Assembly: GCF_000003815.2 (NCBI RefSeq)
Contig: NC_049995.1
Location: 1,600,632 to 1,664,631 of the forward strand
Reading direction: 5' to 3'
Source of the DNA: Branchiostoma floridae
Lineage: Eukaryota; Chordata; Leptocardii; Amphioxiformes; Branchiostomatidae
DNA length: 64,000 nt
The position numbers were made by a program, and so were the translations under genes. The notes below the pieces were generated by a model. The model did no database searches. It saw nothing but the letters and a program-made list of their open reading frames with translations, and had not been told where the DNA came from. Numbering within the stretch: the stretch's first letter is position 1; every line of letters starts with the position of its first letter. Below are positions 18,128 through 54,116 of this stretch, piece by piece.

Positions 18128-20734
18128 TCATTGTTCAACTTGCTTCCACCGCTGAGCAGACACCATCTGCAAAAAAGAAAATATTTCACAGTGGAAAGTT
18201 TATAAAGACTTATTGAACTATCATACTCTTCAATTCTACTAATAGACACTGTACTTTGATATGGTGTGAGTCACCATACACCACTTGAATAGCCAGATAC
18301 ATAATCTATGTGTGAGGGGAAGGGGGGCAGGGTATGCCTTGCAGTGTTCACAACATTATATTTCTATACAGACAGCTGTTATAAAATCAGAAATCTGCAA
18401 TGTATTAAATTCAGTGCTTTACAATATTTTGTTACTTTATCCTTATAGCCAAAAAATCAGTTTGTAAGCAAAGCTACTTATGCACTCAAGTGATATATGC
18501 AGCACACAACAAATATGCTTAAGTTCCATTTACTATCAGAGTAAGAATCAGAGTCTATATATCTTCATCCAAAAAGTAAATTGACTTGATATTCATCTTA
18601 GTAAGTGTCTCTCTGTAGACTAATATATATATAGTGAAGATACAAGTACTAATGACCCACTAGTATAGATATTGTTTCCTTTCAGGATGACTTCAATATG
18701 TATGTTGTTTGACCACTAATTAACTTAAGTCTATATTTCTTTACCAAAAGCATGTATCTCCTCAATCACCCCATATATAATGAAGAAAAAGGAATTCTAA
18801 ATCCAATGATTACTATAGCTTGAGGCAATCAAGTAGCATATCACTTAGCCATGGAATACTGAGAAGTTAAACCACATTCAAATTAATATAGCCAGCATGT
18901 TAACATGTACTTTCAAAGTCTATATTTCTTAGTCAGAAGCGAGGCTTGAATTGATATTCCCTCATAAGTTATAGACATACAAGTAATATTGACTATTTCT
19001 TGATTAAAAAAAAATGAGACATGTTTTCCTGAGTCCAGGGCATTTCTGAAAGGGCTCACTGTAAACAAGAATACAAGCAAAATTTGGCCCAACTTGCAAT
19101 GAGTATATTGCTTGAATCAAAAGCATGGATTTACTTCATGTTCCTAGATATACTGGAAAGATATATGTACTATTGATTCTTACTAGTTTTTGAAAAATCA
19201 GACATGATTTTATATTTCCGTGGAATTTTGGAATGGAGCTAGGTGTCAGTAATGTAACAGCTGAAATTTACCTCAAGTTCCAAAAGCTATATTTTTTCAT
19301 CAAAAGCATGGATTGACTTGAGATTCCAATATATGTTGGAGACATATACGTACTATTGATTATTGCAAATGTTTTTTGAAATCAGACAAGTTTTTCTATT
19401 TCTGTCTATTTTCTGAATGTGACTGGGTAGCAATAACACAAGAGGTCAAATATAGGTCAACTTTGGATGAGTATTTTTCTTCATCAAAAGTATGGATTGA
19501 CTTGAGATTCCAAAATATGTTGGAGACATATACGTACTATTGATTATTGCTATTTTTTTCCAAATCAGAGAAGATTTTGTATTTCCGGGGAATTTATGAA
19601 TGTGGGTGGGTGTCAATGACAGAAGAGGTCAAATATAGGTCAACTTTGGATGAGTATTTTTCTTGATCAAAAGTATGGATTGACTTGAGATTCCAAAATA
19701 TGTTGGAGACATATACGTACTATTGATTATTGCTATTTTTTTCCAAATCAGAGAAGATTTTGCATTTCCGGGGAATTTATGAATGTGGGTGGGTGTCAAT
19801 GACAGAAGAGGTCAAATATAGGTCAACTTTGGATGACTATTTTTCTTGATCAAAAGTATGGATTGAGTTGACATTCCAATATATGTTGGAGACATATAAG
19901 TACTATTGATTATTGCTATTTTTTTCCAAATCAGAGAAGATTTTGTATTTCCGGGGAATTTATGAATGTGGGTGGGTGTTGATGACAGAAGAGGTCAAAT
20001 ATAGGTCAACTTTGGATGACTATTTTTCTTCATCAAAAGTATGGATTGAATTGATATTCCTATATATGTTGGAGACATATACATACTATTGATTATTGCT
20101 ATTTTTTTCAAAATCAGAGAAGATTTTGTATTTCCGGGGATTTTTTTAATGAGGCTGGGTGTGAGTCATACAGGAGGTCAATTGAAGGTCAACTTCCAGT
20201 GTTTTTATTTCTTCATCAAAAGCCTACATTTGCTTCATATTCCGTCATATGCTGCAAAAATATATCTATTAATGATACAAACTACCTCTGTAAGGTTTAC
20301 ATTAGTTGATCACATCCCTGGGACATGTTGAAGTTACCACACTTCTGAATAGTGGGGAGGGGGGCTACTACACACGATGTCAACTTCAAAAATCATTTTC
20401 TCAAGATCGGCCTGGCCGATTGACTTCAAATTTTCTGTGTTAATAGAGTCTATTGAGTTCTGACAAAGGGTTATACTCAAAGATAGCTATGTATTACCGT
20501 AACCATTTAGGACTTTCAAAATGGCAAAAAATGTACTTTCTGTATATAATCACAAGATACAACACGTGAAAGAAGAGCGATCGGCACTTAACACAGTACA
20601 TATAGCATACCAAATGAAACACTGTTTTATCCCCTATCCATACGCACCTTCCATGTATCGGCACACGGCTGAATAAACGCACAGTCCCCGGGGTTCTTCA
20701 GCATGTCAATCCTCCGGAATCTGGCCGGCGCCAT
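18128..20734 (-). CDS. Candidate small two-exon gene, about 41 residues, unknown function
   Basis: On the minus strand an ATG at 20732-20734 in a good context opens 29 codons (starting MAPARFRRID and ending CADTWK) and ends at 20648 with donor AAG/GTGCGT. A strong acceptor (a pyrimidine run then TTTTTTGCAG) ends at 18167. The exon 18128-18166 continues in phase 0 with MVSAQRWKQVEQ and TGA. The frame is open upstream of the ATG, but that part overlaps a transposon terminus at 20812, so the ATG at 20734 is preferred. No signal peptide, membrane segment or known domain is visible. A 183-bp satellite fills much of the intron. It may instead be the end of a longer spliced frame or a non-coding transcript. 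Confidence 0.3.
18540..20290. repeat. 183-bp tandem satellite with homogeneous core and diverged edge
   Basis: The phrase GTTGGAGACATATACGTACT recurs at steps of 183-184 bp (starts near 19337, 19521, 19704, 19887 and 20070). A more decayed copy is near 19154 and barely recognisable ones reach back to about 18540. The copies between 19450 and 20100 are almost identical over the whole unit, including TTTCCGGGGAATTTATGAAT. The gradient shows recent homogenisation of one part of an older array. It carries no coding sequence. Confidence 0.9.
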
Positions 20735-22763: not shown

Positions 22764-22962
22764 GTACTCTCCAAGCAGAGGTTAGGCTCCGGCTTTTTTT
22801 AACGTTTTTTTTAGTCGTTTTTATCGGGCTTTCTATTTTCTCATTTTTCTTGAAGTACTTGACACAGCAAGATTAAATAAAAAAAGAAAAGGCCCGATAA
22901 AAACGACTAAAAAAAAAACGTTAAAAAAAACAGCCGGAGCCTAACCTCTGCTTGGAGAGTAC
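22764..22962. mobile_element. 199-bp palindromic MITE, TA-flanked
   Basis: The left arm CTCTCCAAGCAGAGGTTAGG runs on through a T-rich block to TTTTTATCGGGC, and the right arm repeats it in reverse complement with almost no mismatch. A 40-bp AT-rich loop separates the arms. TA lies at both outer boundaries, fitting a TA-target element. Near identity of the arms argues for a young insertion or hairpin-driven correction. It lies about 190 bp upstream of the likely KLHL start codon. Confidence 0.85.
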
Positions 22963-23171: not shown

Positions 23172-26100
23172 GTAACTGGTACTTTCAATCTAACGTTATA
23201 CTAACGTTACATGTAACGTTCTTGATAAAAACAAGACGGTTCACATGTCTTATGAAGGGTGTGGGGAGGGGGGCAGCGTATGTGATGGCATGTGTGTTCG
23301 TGTGTCTGTGTGTGTGTGTGTACAATCTATTGTATGTAAGTTACAGTGTTACCACATAGATAACGGATGCAAGTATACAAAAGTAACGGGTTCCGCACTG
23401 GTGTTCCAGTGCTGAATCAATGGGTCGAATCGGCCTCAGCACTGGCTTTCCAGTGCTGAAGAAACGTCAGCACTGGTTTTCCAGTGCTGAACGGCCTTGT
23501 ACGAGTGCTGACGCTCCCTCAGCATTGGAATTCCAGTGCTGTACCCAATGCGAGCACTGGATTTCCAGTGCTGAACTTCTCCGAGCACTGGTTTTCCAGT
23601 GCGGAACTGCCGTCAGCACTCGGGTACCAGTACTGAACTCGCGGCAGAGGTCATTCAGCACTGGTTACCCAGTGCTGAAAACGCCGTCAGCACTGGAACC
23701 GAGTGCTGATATACAAAAGTAACGGGTTCAGCACTGGATTTACCAGTGCTCGGGATCTTTTCAGCACTGGAAGACCAGTGCTGTAAAAACTTCAGCTCTG
23801 GGCTTCCAGTGCTGACGTTTATAAAGCACTGGAACATTCCAGTGCTGAACGTAATATTCGTGTACTAGTAGCATGCGTCCGTACGGCTGTCTGAGTTATT
23901 TCCTTTAGACTTAGGTATATCTGTGCGTGTTATTTAATCTCCAACCAGATCTTGCGTGGCACTAGCTTTTACTGGCTTTAGACTAGAGTAGACACTTGTG
24001 ATATTGTTAATTGTGTATACAGTTAATGGCACTCAAGTTTCTTTTCTTTTGGTCAATTGATACGAAAATTTTAAATCAATAAATCACATATTCTATACTT
24101 GTGCAAGTTGTGGCAAAGTAGTGTCTTTTTAGTCAGAGGTAGACAACTAACAGTTGTTCTATCTGTGTGGTAAAGAGATCGCTTGTTTTTTTTTTTAAAA
24201 GAATAGGTAGTTACAGGTGGACGACACATTCTGCTTGTGCGGCAAAGTAACATCATTTAAAAAACAATAGGTAGTCAGAGTTAGACAACTAACAGTTGGT
24301 CTATCCGTGTGGTAAAGAGATCGCTTGTTGTTTTTTTTTACAAAGAATAGGTAGTTACAGGTGGACGACACATTCTGCTTGTGCGGCAAAGAAGCATCAT
24401 TTAAAAAACAATAGGTAGTCAGAGTTAGACAACTAACAGTTGGTCTATCTGTGTGGTAAAGAGATCGCTTTTTTTTTTACAAAGAATAGGTAGTTACAGG
24501 TGGACGACACATTTTGCTTGTGTGGCAAAGAAGCATCATTTAAAAAACATTGTATAATAGTAGTAGTATTAATACAGTTGTCCATTTATATTTTGTTACA
24601 GAATGTAAGTTCTTTTCAACAACTTTATACATTTTATACTCGGTTTCCAGTGCAGAATATTTGTCAGCACTGGATTTCCAGAGCTGAAATGTCCTCAGCA
24701 CTGGAAATCCAGTGCTGATTGTAGTCTCAGCACTCGGTTTCCAGTGCTGACAGGAGGGCTTCGAGTGCTGAAGCTGCCTCAGCACTGGATTTCCAGTGCT
24801 GATGCCGGCTCAGCACTGGACTTCCAGTGCTGACGACCATTTCAGCACTGGTGTTCCAGTGCTGACAGAGGAGACCGTTACTTTTGTATATTTGCATAAC
24901 GGATCCGTTATATTCAATATGAATTTTTATTATTATGTTCATGGATGTTAACATTTAAATGCTGGTTCACCTTTATCCGCAAATTTGAAACCACTGTCAG
25001 CAGACTTAATACTCCTAAATGTGCTGTTTTTAAAGACAACAGATAAAGGTCACCCCACGGATAAAGGTGAACATATGACTCAAATGTAACGTTAGTTATT
25101 TATATAGCGTTAGATTTCCATGCGAAAACGAGACAATACCATACTTTCCTACTGTTGTAAGGGGTATTGTCGTAAGGGGTAATATTAATGTTAGCAAATT
25201 ATTACTAGAACATGTAGCATGTAACTGTTAGCACTAAGTAGATTATCTATCATAATCATCATCATCATCATCTCCGACTGCCCATTTACCACTTTCCTTC
25301 TCCTTACTCAGAAAGCTCCCTTTCATACTGACCATCCCATAATGGCACATCACTTCCCTCACAGCAGGTTATTCCTGTTTACTGGTCTCAGATAATTAAC
25401 CCAGCTTAATAACTGAATCAGATATTAAGCTTCCATTGGGCAACCTCATGCCTCCATGAAATATTTTTTTTGCAACTTAACAAATGACTTACACTTTTAC
25501 CTGATGTATACATTTGCTGATTGACTTGTTAAAGTTCTATGGCAATATTTGGATGTTTGCCCCAGTCAGCTGATCGTGCAGCCTGCCCCAGACAGGGACG
25601 TGCTGCAGGTGTGTGCCAGGAACAATGCCAGGAGAGTGCTGAGTGGGCTGAACCATCAGCGCCAGGAGGGGTGGCTCTGTGACGTGGTCCTCTCAGTCAG
25701 TATAGTGTTTATATATTATCTAGTGCTCTTGAACAGTCTGTACCAAACTTGACATACATATTTTAACAAACTTCATGCATGCAAAATGGATTAAGCCTAT
25801 CTTTCCCACTGTCTTATAATTAGAGTTGAATTTTAGAGGGTCTGCATGAGCGTCCTCACTATGCTTTATGCTACATTTGGGTGGGGGTGGGGGGATTGCT
25901 GATTGACTTTCCCTCATTGTCCAATTGTCTAGCACCGAAGGCACAGCAATCCTTTGGGGGCTCTTTTAAAGAATTTAACTCTTGACCCTCAGAGGCTCGA
26001 TTATGCCTTGTTTTGATATTTGGTATTTCACAGATAAAAGGTAGCCTTCATAACTATTTTATTACAGACAGATCAATACTGATAACTGTAACAATTATGA

Positions 26101-29100
26101 TAAAGCCCCAGACTTTTGGAATGGAAAGATTTGGAAATGGTATAATGGGAAAACTTGTGGTCCTTGTGTGCCTGTACATGTAGGTGAGTGGGAGGTCCCT
26201 ACCAGCCTACAGAGGTGTGTTAGCGGAGCACAGTCAGTACTTCAGGACCATGTTTTCCTCCTGTGCCTGTAGGTGAGTGGGAGGTCCCTACCAGCACACA
26301 GAGGTGTGTTAGCGGAGCACAGTCAGTACTTCAGGGCCATGTTTTCCTCCTGTGCCTGTAGGTGAGTGGGAGGTCCCTACCAGCACACAGAGGTGTGTTA
26401 GCGGAGCACAGTCAGTACTTCAGGGCCATGTTTTCCTCCTGTATGTGCCTGTAGGTGAGTGGGAGGTCCCTACCAGCCCACAGAGGTGTGTTAGCGGAGC
26501 ACAGTCAGTACTTCAGGGCCATGTTTTCCTCCTGTATGTGTCTGTATAGGTGAGTGGGAAGTCCCTACCAGCACACAGAGGTGTGTTAGCGGAGCACAGT
26601 CAGTACTTCAGGGCCATGTTTTCCTCCTGTATGTGGCCTGTAGGTGAGTGGGAAGTCCCTACCAGCCCACAGAGGTGTGTTAGCGGAGCACAGTCAGTAC
26701 TTCAGGGCCATGTTTTCCTCCTGTATGTGCCTGTAGGTGAGTGGAAGGTCCCTACCAGCCCACAGAGGTGTGTTAGCGGAGCACAGTCAGTACTTCAGGG
26801 CCATGTTTTCCTCCTGTATGTGTCTGTAGGTGAGTGGGAAGTCCCTACCAGCCCACAGAGGTGTGTTAGCGGAGCACAGTCAGTACTTCAGGGCCATGTT
26901 TTCCTCCTGTATGTGTCTGTAGGTGAGTGGGAAGTCCCTACCAGCCCACAGAGGTGTGTTAGCGGAGCACAGTCAGTACTTCAGGGCCATGTTTTCCTCC
27001 TGTGCCTGTAGGTGAGTGGAAGGTCCCTACCAGCCCACAGAGGTGTGTTAGCGGAGCACAGTCAGTACTTCAGGGCCATGTTTTCCTCCTGTATGTGTCT
27101 GTATAGGTGAGTGGGAGGTCCCTACCAGCCCACAGAGGTGTGTTAGCGGAGCACAGTCAGTACTTCAGGGCCATGTTTTCCTCCTGTGCCTGTAGGTGAG
27201 TGGGAAGTCCCTACCAGCCCACAGAGGTGTGTTAGCGAAGCACAGTCAGTACTTCAGGGCCATGTTTTCCTCCTGTATGTGTCTGTAGGTGAGTGAGAAG
27301 TCCCTACCAGCCCACAGAGGTGTGTTAGCGGAGCACAGTCAGTACTTCAGGGCCATGTTTTCCTCCTGTATGGGTCTGTATAGGTGAGTGGGAAGTCCCT
27401 ACCAGCCCACAGAGGTGTGTTAGCGGAGCACAGTCAGTACTTCAGGGCCATGTTTTCCTCCTGTATGTGCCTGTAGGTGAGTGAGAAGTCCCTACCAGCC
27501 CACAGAGGTGTGTTAGCGGAGCACAGTCAGTACTTCAGGGCCATGTTTTCCTCCTGTATGGGTCTGTATAGGTGAGTGGGAAGTCCCTACCAGCCCACAG
27601 AGGTGTGTTAGCGGAGCACAGTCAGTACTTCAGGGCCATGTTTTCCTCCTGTATGGGTCTGTATAGGTGAGTGGGAAGTCCCTACCAGCCCACAGAGGTG
27701 TGTTAGCGGAGCACAGTCAGTACTTCAGGGCCATGTTTTCCTCCTGTATGGGTCTGTATAGGTGAGTGGGAGGTCCCTACAAGCCCACAGAGGTGTGTTA
27801 GCGAAGCACAGTCAGTACTTCAGGGCCATGTTTTCCTCCTGTATGGGTCTGTATAGGTGAGTGGAAAGTCCCTACAAGCCCACAGAGGTGTGTTAGCGGA
27901 GCACAGTCAGAACTTCAGGGCCATGTTTTCCTCCTGTATGGGTCTGTATAGGTGAGTGGGAAGTCCCTACCAGCCCACAGAGGTGTGTTAGCGGAGCACA
28001 GTCAGTACTTCAGGGCCATGTTTTCCTCCTGTGTCTGTAGGGGAGTGGGAAGTCCCTCCCAGCCCCACAGAGGTGTGTTAGCGGAGCACAAGTCAGTATT
28101 TCAGGGCCATGTTTTCCTCCTGTATGTGCCTGTAGGTGAGTGGGAAGTCCCTATCAGCCCACAGAGGTGTGTTAGCGGAGCACAGTCAGTACTTCAGGGC
28201 CATGTTTTCCTCCCGTATGTGTCTGTATAGGTGAGTGGGAGGTCCCTACCAGCCTACAGAGGTGTGTTAGCGGAGCACAGTCAGTACTTCAGGGCCATGT
28301 TTTCCTCCTGTGCCTGTAGGTGAGTGGGAGGTCCCTACCAGCCCACAGAGGTGTGTTAGCGGAGCACAGTCAGTACTTCAGGGCCATGTTTTCCTCAGGA
28401 ATGTTGGAGACTACTCAGCGGCATGTAGAGGTGCATGGTTTGGAGCCCTCTGCTGTGGAGCAGCTGATCAGCTTCATGTATACAGGAGAACTGACAGGTG
28501 AACTGAAGTTAATCTGCACTCTACATTATGGCTGGCCAAATGCAAATTTTTTATGTATGAACAGGTGCCCAACTGGGAGGGCTAGCTTGTCAGCAGGGTA
28601 AGCCATAATGTTTTATAGACACACAGTAAAAGGCTAGTTAGGCAGCCCAGCATGTGTGTTCTGAAGGGCCAAACCACTGAATAAGTACAAATAATAGCTG
28701 ACCAGGTTTTGAGATGGAAATTATAAATTCACATGAGAGATTTTTTAGTGTGTCTGTGTGAGCATGTCTGTGTTTCTTTAAATAAATTAAGAACAGCATA
28801 ACTTCAGAACCTCTGTATGGATTGTCATGACATGATATGACATCTGATATGACATCTGGATATGGATACATGTAGATGTTAGCAAGACAAAGGTCAAGTT
28901 AGAACTATGACATTTGCCAAATGATTTATAACCTTTACAACTGGTGCATTAATTGTGTTTGTCAGTAATTATGCAAATAAGGTCCTTGTTTGCATATATT
29001 AGTTGATTTCTCCACCACCCAAAAGAAGACATGCACAATCTATGTTAAGAAGGCTTTTATTGCATTTATGATAATTTATGCAAAAGATGTTCTCATTTGC

Positions 29101-43619: not shown

Positions 43620-45270
43620 ACAGGTTCTTGGACAACCCTAGGTAGAAAAAAAAGTGCTTGCAGTTTTTTGTCTGGTTGGTGTCATGCAATAGTTTGTTGG
43701 ACAATTGAACTGTTGGACAGTTTTTTTGTTTGCTGTTGTCGTACGACATGCTGTAAACAACCCCAGAGAGATAACAAGACTGCTGGAAAGTTTTGTTGTT
43801 GTTGTCATGCGACAGGTTGTTGGACAACCCCAGGTAAGTAACAAGACTGTTGGACAGTTTTGTTTGTAGTTGTCATGCGACAGGTTGTTGGACAACCCCA
43901 GGTAAGTAACAAGACTGTTGGACAGTTTTGTTTGTAGTTGTCATGCGACAGGTTGTTGGACAACCCCAGGTAAGTGTACAAGACTATTGGATAGTTTTGT
44001 TTGTGGATGGACGACGGGTTGTGGGATAGCACCAGGCAGGTAACAGGACTGTTGGACAGTTTTGTTTGTTGATGTACGACAGGCTGTGGGACAGCACCAG
44101 GCAGGTAACAAGACTGTTGGACAGTTTTGTTTGTTGATGTATACGATAGGCTGTGGGACAGCACCAGGCAAGTAACAGGACTGTTGGACAGTTTTGTTTG
44201 TTGATGTACGACAGGCTGTGGGACAGCACCAGGCAGGTAACAAGACTGTTGGACAGTTTTGTTTGTTGATGTACGACAGGCTGTGGGACGGCACCAGGCA
44301 AGTAACAGGGCTGTCGGACAGTTTGTTGATGTACGACAGGTTGTGGGACAACACCAGGCAAGTAACAGGACTGTTGGGCAGTTTGGTTCGTTGATGTACG
44401 ACAAGCTGTGGGACAGCACCAGGCAAGTAACAGGACTGTTGGACAGTTTGGTTCGTTGATGTACGATAGGCTGTGGGACAGCACTAGGCAGGTAACAAGA
44501 CTGTTGGACAGTTTGGTTTGTTGATGTACGGCGGGTTGTGGGACAGCACCAACCAGGTAACAAGACTGTTGGACAGTTTGGTTGGTTGATGTACGACAGG
44601 CTGTGGGACAGCACCAGGCAAGTAACAAGACTGTTGGACAGTTTGGTTTGTTGTCGTGCGACAGGCTGTGGGACAGCACCAGGCAGGTAACAGGACTGTT
44701 GGACAGTTTGGTTTGTTGTCGTGCGACAGGCAGTGAGACAACGCCAGGTAGAGTAACAACAGTGTACGACAGTTTTTTGTTTGCTGTTGTCGTATGACAG
44801 GTTGTTCGACAACCCCGGGTAGGTAACAAGACTGTTGGACAGTTTTGTTTGTTGTTGTCGTGCGACAGGTTGGTTAGACAACCCCAGAGAAGTAAAAAGG
44901 CTGCTCGACAGTTTTGTGACGCTGTGCTGTCGTACGACAGATTGTTGAGCAACTCCAGGAAGCCAACAAGACTGTTGGACATTTTTTGTTTGTTGTTGTC
45001 GTGCGACAGGTTGTTAGACAACCCCAGAGAAGTAAAAAGGCTGTTAGACAGTTTTGTGGGTTGTCGTACGATAGATTGTTTAGCAACCCCAGGTAAGCAG
45101 CAAAACTGTTGGACATTTTTGTTTGTTGTTGTCGTGTGACAGGTTGTTAGACAACCTCAGAGAATTAAAAAGGCTGTTAGATAGTTTTGTGTGTTGTTGT
45201 ACGACAGATTGTTGAGTAACCCCAGGTAAGCAGCAAGACTGTTGGAAAGTTTTTAGACTAGAGAAGTAAA
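43620..45270. repeat. Minisatellite of about 63 bp whose units carry 5' splice-site motifs
   Basis: About 26 units contain GACTGTTGGACAGTTTTGTT, a (T/G)CG(T/A)(A/G)CGACAGG word, and (A)CCCCAGGTAAGTAACAAG or CACCAGGCAGGTAACAAG. CAG/GTAAGT or CAG/GTAACA thus recurs every unit. Inverted words (TTGTTGGACAAC, CTGTGGGACAG) make each unit partly palindromic. Long reverse-strand frames here arise from the repeat. No adjacent exon could be identified. Confidence 0.93.
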
Positions 45271-52845: not shown

Positions 52846-54116
52846 GTTTGTTTGTTTGTTTGTTTCTATTTAACCAGGGTTACATATCGCCAATTTAGGC
52901 GTTTTTCAAAGTTCCCTGGGGGCAACCCCGAACATACATGCAACATAAAAGCGATATCAAATAACATAAATGGTAACATAGCGAGTACTAACGAAAATTA
53001 ACAAAAATCAATTTTACAACGTAAGCATAATGTAACTCATAATCATTATCAAAATGAAATAAATGGAGATTTGCATACGAATGTGAACAAAACAAGAAAA
53101 GACATGATAGTTTGACGTTTTAGACCATGTGGTGTTCTGTTTGGTATATGGTTTTGAAGGTGGAAATGGATGCTGCTGCCCTTAAGTGTGGAGTTAGTGA
53201 GTTCCACAGGGATGCGCCGGAGAACGAGAGAGACTTTTTCTGGTATTGTAGACGTGTTTTAGATAGTTGAAGCCCCCCCCCCCCTGTGTACTGTGCCGGG
53301 TGTGGTGTGAGTGTGTTTCAGCAGATGTGGTGAAGAGTTGGGAAATGTGTGTAGGAGACATTCCATTGAGTGCTTTGAACATAAAGACAGCCTTATTTCT
53401 CTTGTGATGCTGCGCTACAGGGGTCCAGCCCAGTGTGTTCAGAATAGTCTCTCTTGGAGTGTGGTGGTCGCAACCTAGCACTACCCTGCCCGCCCTGTGT
53501 TGCAACTTTTGTAGTTTGTCAATGCCCCCTTCCCTCCCTGGTCCCATACGGTGGTACAATATTGAATGTGTGGGAGGAATAGTGTAGTATAAATTGTCAA
53601 TAGCGCTTGCCTGTTCAGATATGGCCTTAGGCATTTCATGATGCCGATGATCTTAGACAGCTTCTTGTTAACGTGAAGAAAGTGGTAGTTCCACAGAAGG
53701 GCCTTGTCTATTACAACTCCTAAATACTTAAAAGTGTCCACCTGCTCCAGTTCAGTGTAATCTAGAAGGAGCTGTAGTGACTGGTCAGTAGCTTTGGACT
53801 TCTGTGACCCAACCAACATTGATTTGCATTTTGAAGGGTTTAAGGATAGTTTGTTGGCGACGAACCAGTGCATGAGGCGGATGCAGTCATTCTGTAGGGG
53901 CTCCTGTACTGTCTGTATGCTGCGATGGGAGAAGTACACAATGGTGTCGTCCGCATACATAGCTACTCTACATGACTGTAAACAATTAGGCAGGTCGTTG
54001 ATATATACAATAAAAAGGAGGGGTCCAAGAATGGACCCATGAGGAACTCCACAAGTCACGCAAGATGTATCAGATAGGAGTTGACACAGGTGCATTGCAG
54101 TCTACCTGTGTGACAC
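52846..54116 (-). mobile_element. 5'-truncated non-LTR retrotransposon (Jockey/CR1/I group)
   Basis: On the minus strand a broken frame (54095 to about 53194) reads VPHGSILGPLLFIVYINDLP, AMYADDTIVYF with the YADD catalytic box, NKLSLNPSKCKSMLVG and FKYLGVVID, then QKLQHRAGRVV and KAVFMFKALNGMSP of the C-terminal part. One frameshift lies near 53500 and another at a poly-C run at 53275. The 3' end is GGTTAAATAGAAA(CAAA)n, a simple-repeat tail. It starts within the RT domain, so endonuclease and ORF1 are missing. The element interrupts the 26-bp minisatellite. Confidence 0.92.

Follow-up and report, generated by a model that had tools for sequence, protein, structure and literature searches.

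One question about transposons of the Foldback type is why they retain long, repetitive ends. In the window, the whole 64,000-nucleotide stretch of Branchiostoma floridae DNA analyzed here, positions 23369-24895 are occupied by a 1,527-bp non-autonomous DNA transposon that is non-coding and palindrome-rich at both ends. The original prediction had placed a 1.55-kb inverted-repeat element at 23360..24911, both ends of which were arrays of a single palindrome family. Terminal repeats, together with 13 left and 6 right palindromes, bear out the transposon and its arrays, while the exact bounds are corrected to 23369-24895 plus 9-bp duplications.

Structure of the element

The features of the element are as follows, with the fit of palindrome centers to a 10.5-bp period given as R(10.5).

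23360..23368, unstranded: left target-site duplication ATAACGGAT, a 9-bp exact repeat of 24896-24904
23369..23389, plus strand: left terminal inverted repeat GCAAGTATACAAAAGTAACGG, 21 bp; 52 exact GCAARTATACAAAAGTAACGGGTTCC ends genome-wide
23393..23847, plus strand: left array of 13 palindromes; center steps 44, 31, 52, 32, 31, 31, 42, 31.5, 42, 32.5, 31, 32; R(10.5)=0.946
23502..23510, plus strand: half-palindrome within the left 52-bp step; expected center 21 bp past the preceding palindrome
23710..23725, plus strand: second core of the terminal repeat, lying 336 bp (32.0 turns) inward of the outer core and followed by 4 palindromes
24130..24549, plus strand: middle domain, about 3 copies of a 144-bp repeat
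24647..24655, minus strand: innermost right-array palindrome, degenerate, or a half-site
24665..24864, minus strand: right array, 6 palindromes with steps of 32, 31, 52, 32, 31 counted inward; half-site at 24762-24770; R(10.5)=0.979
24875..24895, minus strand: right terminal inverted repeat, reverse complement GCAAATATACAAAAGTAACGG, 21 bp; terminus of the GCAAA...GGTCTCC type
24896..24904, unstranded: right target-site duplication ATAACGGAT, matching 23360-23368

The 21-bp termini (GCAARTATACAAAAGTAACGG) form a near-perfect inverted repeat, and no open reading frame of at least 150 aa was found between 23369 and 24895. A second terminal core at 23710, within the left array, gives the left end two termini in tandem.

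The palindrome CAGCACTGG-N4-CCAGTGCTG has 16 matches in the window with at most 3 mismatches, as against 0.02 expected from shuffles, and three further palindromes with loops of 3, 5 and 6 nt bring the total to 19. The usual loop is 4 nt (16/19 in the window, and 118 of the 147 distinct palindromes in the loci compared) rather than the 3 nt originally proposed, and the 4-nt loops are A+T-rich (81%). The palindrome steps had been given exactly, although the outermost left palindrome (23393-23414), with its step of 44, had been overlooked. The 52-bp step of each array holds a half-palindrome (23502 and 24762). As had been suggested, the sequence between palindromes differs each time: within the window arrays, spacers of the same length are 31% identical (33 pairs), while arms are 93% identical (136 pairs). 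A CRISPR array was rejected, since neither a near-constant spacer length nor a single array orientation is present; spacers range from 9 to 41 bp and the arrays are inverted within a transposon.

Copies in the host genome

The host genome searched comprises 513,431,437 bp in 431 contigs, and 40 of 478 and 40 of 390 candidates were scored in the family DNA searches. The terminal core has 209 exact matches, versus 2 for a reversed control, and family 1, to which the window element belongs, has more than 100 ends. Among 81 ends in which the core is followed by GGTCTCC, 67 start with GCAAA, like the right end in the window, and 14 with GCAAG; the five GCAAG ends that were fetched (L038, L040, L044, L045, L048) have left-type spacing. 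A subfamily made up of L040, L044, L045 and L048 was considered and rejected, because the sequence beyond the terminus is also common to all four, which makes the element end part of a larger repeat.

Of the 46 two-ended copies of family 1, 34 carry an exact 9-bp duplication, 3 a duplication with one mismatch and 9 none at that position. This count omits L001-L008, which have a single end or overlap, L034 and L035, which are truncated and apparently duplicated, and also L049-L060, L079-L082 and the family-2 loci. In L026 and L033 a 9-bp repeat lies 3-4 bp further outside. The duplications lack a strong consensus except for A/T at positions 6 and 8. A comparison with empty sites yielded one case, L066, for which the joined flanks match two adjacent host tandem units at 89-90% over 150 nt; these units contain a single CTTACACTA and no element, which indicates precise insertion with a 9-bp duplication. 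Termini, duplications and empty site together constitute the anatomy of transposition.

Once inverted, the right end of one copy shows about 70% identity over 250 bp to the left end of a different copy, and the number of palindromes or repeats in the ends varies between copies. Two short copies, L039 (290 bp) and L041 (190 bp), have intact duplications; long arrays may thus be dispensable, provided that these copies did not shrink after insertion. A 77-bp remnant (L077, G000:C323:160740-160990) retains both termini and one palindrome and lacks the 9-bp duplication.

Helical phase of the palindromes

The centers of the window palindromes fit a 10.50-bp period, R being 0.946 for the 13 sites on the left and 0.979 for the 6 on the right, which upholds the proposal that the steps approximate 3, 4 and 5 helical turns. 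For a 31.5-bp period the values are 0.08 (left) and 0.46 (right), and the joint R of both arrays is 0.956 at 10.50 bp, sharply the best period, versus 0.20 at 31.5. Since the peak of a simple tandem repeat of 31 bp would lie at 31-32, it is the non-unit steps that carry the phase signal; when the 31-32 steps were kept and the others redrawn, 0.18% of 20,000 trials equaled the observed 10.5-bp fit. The outermost left step of 44 bp is the worst fit in the window, at 2 bp off phase.

Step values were tabulated over the usable fetched copies of both families, omitting L003-L005, L008, L034, L035, L040, L044, L045, L048, L049-L060 and L079-L082, and distinct values rather than events were compared. 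Non-unit values present in at least three copies (20, 40, 41, 42, 43, 44, 51, 52 and 63) deviate by a mean of 1.0 bp from multiples of 10.5, whereas the deviation is 2.8 bp for the 21 values found in no more than two copies and would be 2.6 bp for a uniform spread (Mann-Whitney p=0.0014). The difference holds at p=0.003 when the value 41, which occurs at different places in four copies, is moved to the rare set, and at p=0.011 when the shared values are collapsed to five ancestral positions. Because shared values lie near phase and rare ones are random, the data suggest that indels arise at any phase and that ends keeping phase have multiplied more. The non-31 steps are few, falling at about five homologous positions, and the two families share ancestry, so that the layouts are not independent.

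The phase is looser where arrays have grown. In nine layouts expanded by pure 31-bp units, R(10.5) drops to 0.59-0.86, with a spread of up to 5 bp, and better periods lie at 10.36-10.46 (R 0.89-0.99). Among the expanded arrays, R(10.5) is 0.74 in the left array of L013/L016 and 0.78 in the right arrays of L013, L016, L019, L029 and L033; in L066, where the 12 sites on the right scatter over about 5 bp, it is 0.59. Copies with added 31-bp units thus depart from strict phase, and facing in them is near rather than perfect. The tabulation of spacings called for in the original prediction, done over the fetched copies of both families, therefore places values shared by at least three copies near 10.5-bp multiples and rare values elsewhere, with drift from strict phase in the expanded subfamilies.

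A second family and retention of the layout

Family 2 was found through L071 (G000:C15:9842210-9843640), a family-1 copy lying in a family-2 palindrome array beside L079/L080. Its termini are GCAAGTATACCGAAGTCACGG and GCAAAACTACCGAAGTCACGG, the latter with 59 exact matches in the genome. Of the 16 copies fetched, 12 have a 9-bp duplication, which in L088 is displaced 9 bp outward from the usual terminus. L074 begins 40 bp past the right end of a further family-2 copy, L097. A search of the host genome for further families with an altered terminus gave one match only, which was family-1-like.

The commonest left layout of family 2 is 29.5, 43, 31, 52, 32, 31, 31, 31, 43, 30.5, 43, 32.5, 31, 40, in which the 52 step was often split by the detector into 20+32 at the half-site, and the right layout opens with 36.5, 32, 31, 52 (or 51), 32, 31 in many copies. 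The corresponding layouts in the window are 29.5, 44, 31, 52, 32, 31, 31, 42, 31.5, 42, 32.5, 31, 32 (left) and 36.5, 32, 31, 52, 32, 31 (right). The two families agree to within 1 bp, except in the innermost left step (32 versus 40) and in how many 31-bp units they contain. For the most frequent layouts of family 2, R(10.5) is 0.911 (left) and 0.937 (right), and the maximum deviation across the four layouts of both families is 1.5 bp. Measured from the terminal core, the mean phase is 9.5 and 8.5 in the left arrays and 4.9 and 4.6 in the right arrays of families 1 and 2, respectively; left and right arrays are thus about half a turn apart relative to the termini, alike in both families. Since the families share ancestry, this likeness represents retention and not independent origin. 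Phase is a property of the basic layouts, and both the layout and the half-site core have been retained between the two families. Length changes of at least 3 bp between families numbered 1 where 7.7 were expected (p 0.004, or 0.10 at half the rate), a rough comparison from a hand-made list that was given no weight.

Twelve left units of the window were compared with those of the family-2 copy L098 in an alignment typed by hand, from which one extra L098 unit was dropped. The GCACT/AGTGC core is identical at 114 of 120 positions (95%) and the outer arm at 66 of 96, compared with 110 of 163 (67%) for spacers, a figure flattered by the counting of half-sites and the inner terminal copy as spacer, and 22 of 45 for loops. 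Changed arm pairs fall mostly (24/30) at arm positions 1, 2 and 8. Two pairs changed on both sides and kept pairing, 20 were broken and 7 newly formed; among the 147 distinct palindromes, changes affect both arms in 2 cases and one arm in 193. Complementarity of arm pairs is 91% in the 12 left window units and 79% in the 12 family-2 units. It is half-site sequence, not base pairing, that is kept. Variation among copies is more modest evidence: at the right end (17 copies) arms are less variable than spacers (p 0.0046; non-CpG 0.043), and at the left end (10 copies) there is no clear arm constraint (p 0.08; non-CpG 0.56). Weak recent constraint is as expected if most copies decay after insertion.

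Class assignment and search for a transposase

The element is of Foldback type, with end repeats that vary in number among copies, and its movement probably depends on a Mutator-like (MULE) transposase from another locus. We base the MULE assignment on the 9-bp duplication, the long repetitive inverted ends and the tandem termini, which fit that superfamily. The exact 9-bp duplication in 34/46 copies falls within the 8-11 bp given for MULEs in the part of the source consulted (PMC6446971), and the roughly 70% likeness of ends over 250 bp between copies, with the near-perfect 21-bp terminus, agrees with long terminal inverted repeats. Rehavkus elements combine a 9-bp duplication with a PHD-type transposase; of the two, the duplication was observed here, and no transposase was found in the copies examined. 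For Merlin no support was found; the genome has three matches to PF12762 (IS1595-type transposase), none within 10 kb of the listed ends. The P superfamily, to which Galileo belongs, has duplications of 7-8 bp, in disagreement with the 9 bp found here.

An autonomous copy was sought, and no transposase was found in the element copies examined. The genome has 27 matches to the PF10551 MULE domain; the one closest to any of the 159 listed ends is 17 kb away, so that none falls within 10 kb. Two long, two-ended loci (L011, L061) were rejected as autonomous partners, since their frames of 828 and 957 aa were read by eye as those of non-LTR reverse transcriptases. The 9.9-kb L009/L010 has no ORF longer than 139 aa and the 4.3-kb L089 none longer than 132 aa, and Pfam comparison of 10 chosen ORFs out of 216 non-redundant ones gave nothing transposase-like. 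Ten 3.2-kb MULE loci (L049-L058) and the larger L059 and L060 were also set aside; these lack palindrome arrays, and the family terminus matches them no better than expected by chance.

Elsewhere in the genome, L099 (G000:C9:6718000-6724800) has an open 590-aa FLYWCH+MULE frame between ends of about 350 bp with subterminal repeats. A 9-bp duplication, GTGTGTAGC, was read by eye on both sides, and a strict automatic scan found none. The subterminal repeats are spaced by 16, 25, 22, 21, 22, 23 and by 16, 14, 22, 23, 23, with R(10.5) of 0.51 and 0.29; they are unphased, so phasing is no general property of MULEs. L099 and a second FLYWCH+MULE element, L100 (G000:C19:2132800-2139600), are 97-98% identical, both with ends of about 350 bp. 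These two elements contrast with a 2019 survey which, in the portion available, reports no MULE transposase in Branchiostoma floridae (PMC6446971).

Proposed mechanism and alternatives

We propose that this is a non-autonomous Foldback-type element with a 9-bp target duplication, most likely mobilized by a MULE transposase from elsewhere. The 21-bp terminal repeat would serve as the cleavage site at each end, with cutting at GCAA. Inside each terminus, every palindrome of the array (core GCACT-N8-AGTGC) would be occupied by a dimer of a DNA-binding protein, for which the transposase or its DNA-binding domain is the likeliest candidate. With centers about 3, 4 or 5 turns apart, the dimers of one end would face roughly one side of the helix and contact each other, and the resulting cluster may mark the end and help to pair both ends before cutting. 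We infer the bound protein, its cooperativity, the synapsis and the MULE source, and regard the explanation as a whole, with dimer arrays on one face marking and pairing the ends of a Foldback/MULE element, as moderately probable. The dimer binding and one-sided facing put forward in the original prediction fit the conserved half-site core and the uncompensated arm changes; binding is still a matter of interpretation, and strict facing does not hold in every expanded copy. That helical facing was itself selected is a more tentative claim, to which we give somewhat less than an even chance. On this reading 13-14 dimers would line up on one face and stay in phase along about 430-470 bp despite the divergence of spacers and outer arms, and in each family the left and right rows would be held half a turn apart as measured from the cut sites.

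The same regularity could instead be a by-product of array growth, in which an old 31-bp tandem repeat gave rise to steps of 42, 52 and 63 by deletion or decay of sub-blocks of about 10, 21 and 31 bp, with no selection for facing. Duplicated 31-bp units in subfamilies, such as the run of identical units in L016, would be explained in this way, as would the drift of expanded arrays from strict 10.5-bp phase, the composition of 52 as 21+31 with a half-palindrome and the closeness of 63 to 2x31.5; Drosophila FB ends, as far as the cited text describes them, likewise have blocks of 27-31-bp repeats (PMC7642927). We nevertheless judge this origin unlikely, in that the window layouts have a period of 10.5 and not 31.5, and the layout has outlasted 33% spacer divergence. 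Rare length changes, moreover, are not multiples of 10.5, so that the mutational process alone does not favor them.

A bound host factor or rotationally positioned nucleosomes would make the array a chromatin or promoter module rather than a docking site for transposase. Both the 10.5-bp phase and the A+T-rich 4-nt loops (81%) would also suit nucleosome positioning, and no transposase was found in the copies examined; but in those copies the arrays occur at both ends, inverted, and in both families most of them begin at a set distance, 29.5 or 36.5 bp, from the terminal core, which leaves such a module distinctly improbable. Least credible, and in our estimate very improbable, is that the palindromes act as DNA hairpins or cruciforms at structure-recognized ends, or as RNA hairpins. 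The window palindromes are nearly perfect, as hairpins would have it, with 91% of arm pairs complementary in the 12 left units, yet the 12 family-2 units keep the half-site core at 79% complementarity, and helical phase is irrelevant to hairpins. Protein dimer sites are favored over hairpins because arm changes are mostly uncompensated.

Should facing indeed be selected, the ends of these elements would act like a natural ruler on which a transposase filament is assembled in order. The model of phased dimers is directly testable, since two natural families show which features are kept (half-site core, near-helical phase) and which are free (spacers, loops, number of units).

Relation to known elements

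The original prediction that no element with this architecture had been described proved too strong: Foldback-type MULEs with subterminal repeat arrays (Tm1, Muta1) and the palindromic ends of Mcmar are on record. According to the available text, Tm1, a Mutator/Foldback element of root-knot nematodes, resembles the present families in its mostly 9-bp duplications, its mostly non-autonomous copies and its composite ends with short repeats in variable number, but has a tandem direct repeat unit of 13-15 bp and a known copy with a Phantom-type MULE transposase (PMC3169594). Muta1 and other Aedes aegypti MULEs are termed 'type 2 Foldback'; unlike the element here, Muta1 has an array in which a 12-bp direct repeat occurs 9 times, separated by 3-4 bp, and a known active transposase (PMC5225508). 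The word 'helical' is absent from the Tm1 paper (PMC3169594) and the Muta1 paper (PMC5225508).

Elements of the Tc1/mariner superfamily duplicate TA. One of them, Mcmar of Meloidogyne chitwoodi, has 355-bp ends of direct repeats and palindromes, as here, although it is Tc1/mariner-like and is compared from a one-sentence description (PMC3169594). Galileo shares long repetitive ends and several binding sites for its THAP-containing transposase, and a multi-site synaptic complex has been proposed for it; that transposase, however, is of the P superfamily, three sites are named, 'palindrom' is absent from the paper as consulted, and the geometry of the multiple sites is not given in the text examined (PMC3688188). 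Drosophila FB elements have inverted ends with 27-31-bp repeat blocks in variable number, like the ends here, but in the description consulted the blocks are contiguous, without the layout of palindrome plus variable spacer (PMC7642927). Plant MULEs with tandem terminal inverted repeats also carry a second terminal repeat behind the first, whereas the inner copy here sits in a palindrome array (PMC3310237). In the part of the open PMC literature covered, no helix-phased palindromes in transposon ends were found. Within that scope, repeat arrays in such ends are already known and the palindromic one-face layout is new.

Other features of the window

Just upstream of the element, nested inverted repeats at 22764-22962 (37 nt, 97% complementary; 42 nt, 88% complementary) resemble a small MITE. 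About 24 copies of a 95-bp tandem unit occupy 26179-28396, the translation of which resembles a repeated exon fragment, and other large tandem arrays lie at 19099-20195 and 43709-45253. Polycystin, kelch and reverse-transcriptase domains are present in the window, including a reverse-transcriptase fragment (RVT_1) on the minus strand at 53481-54101.
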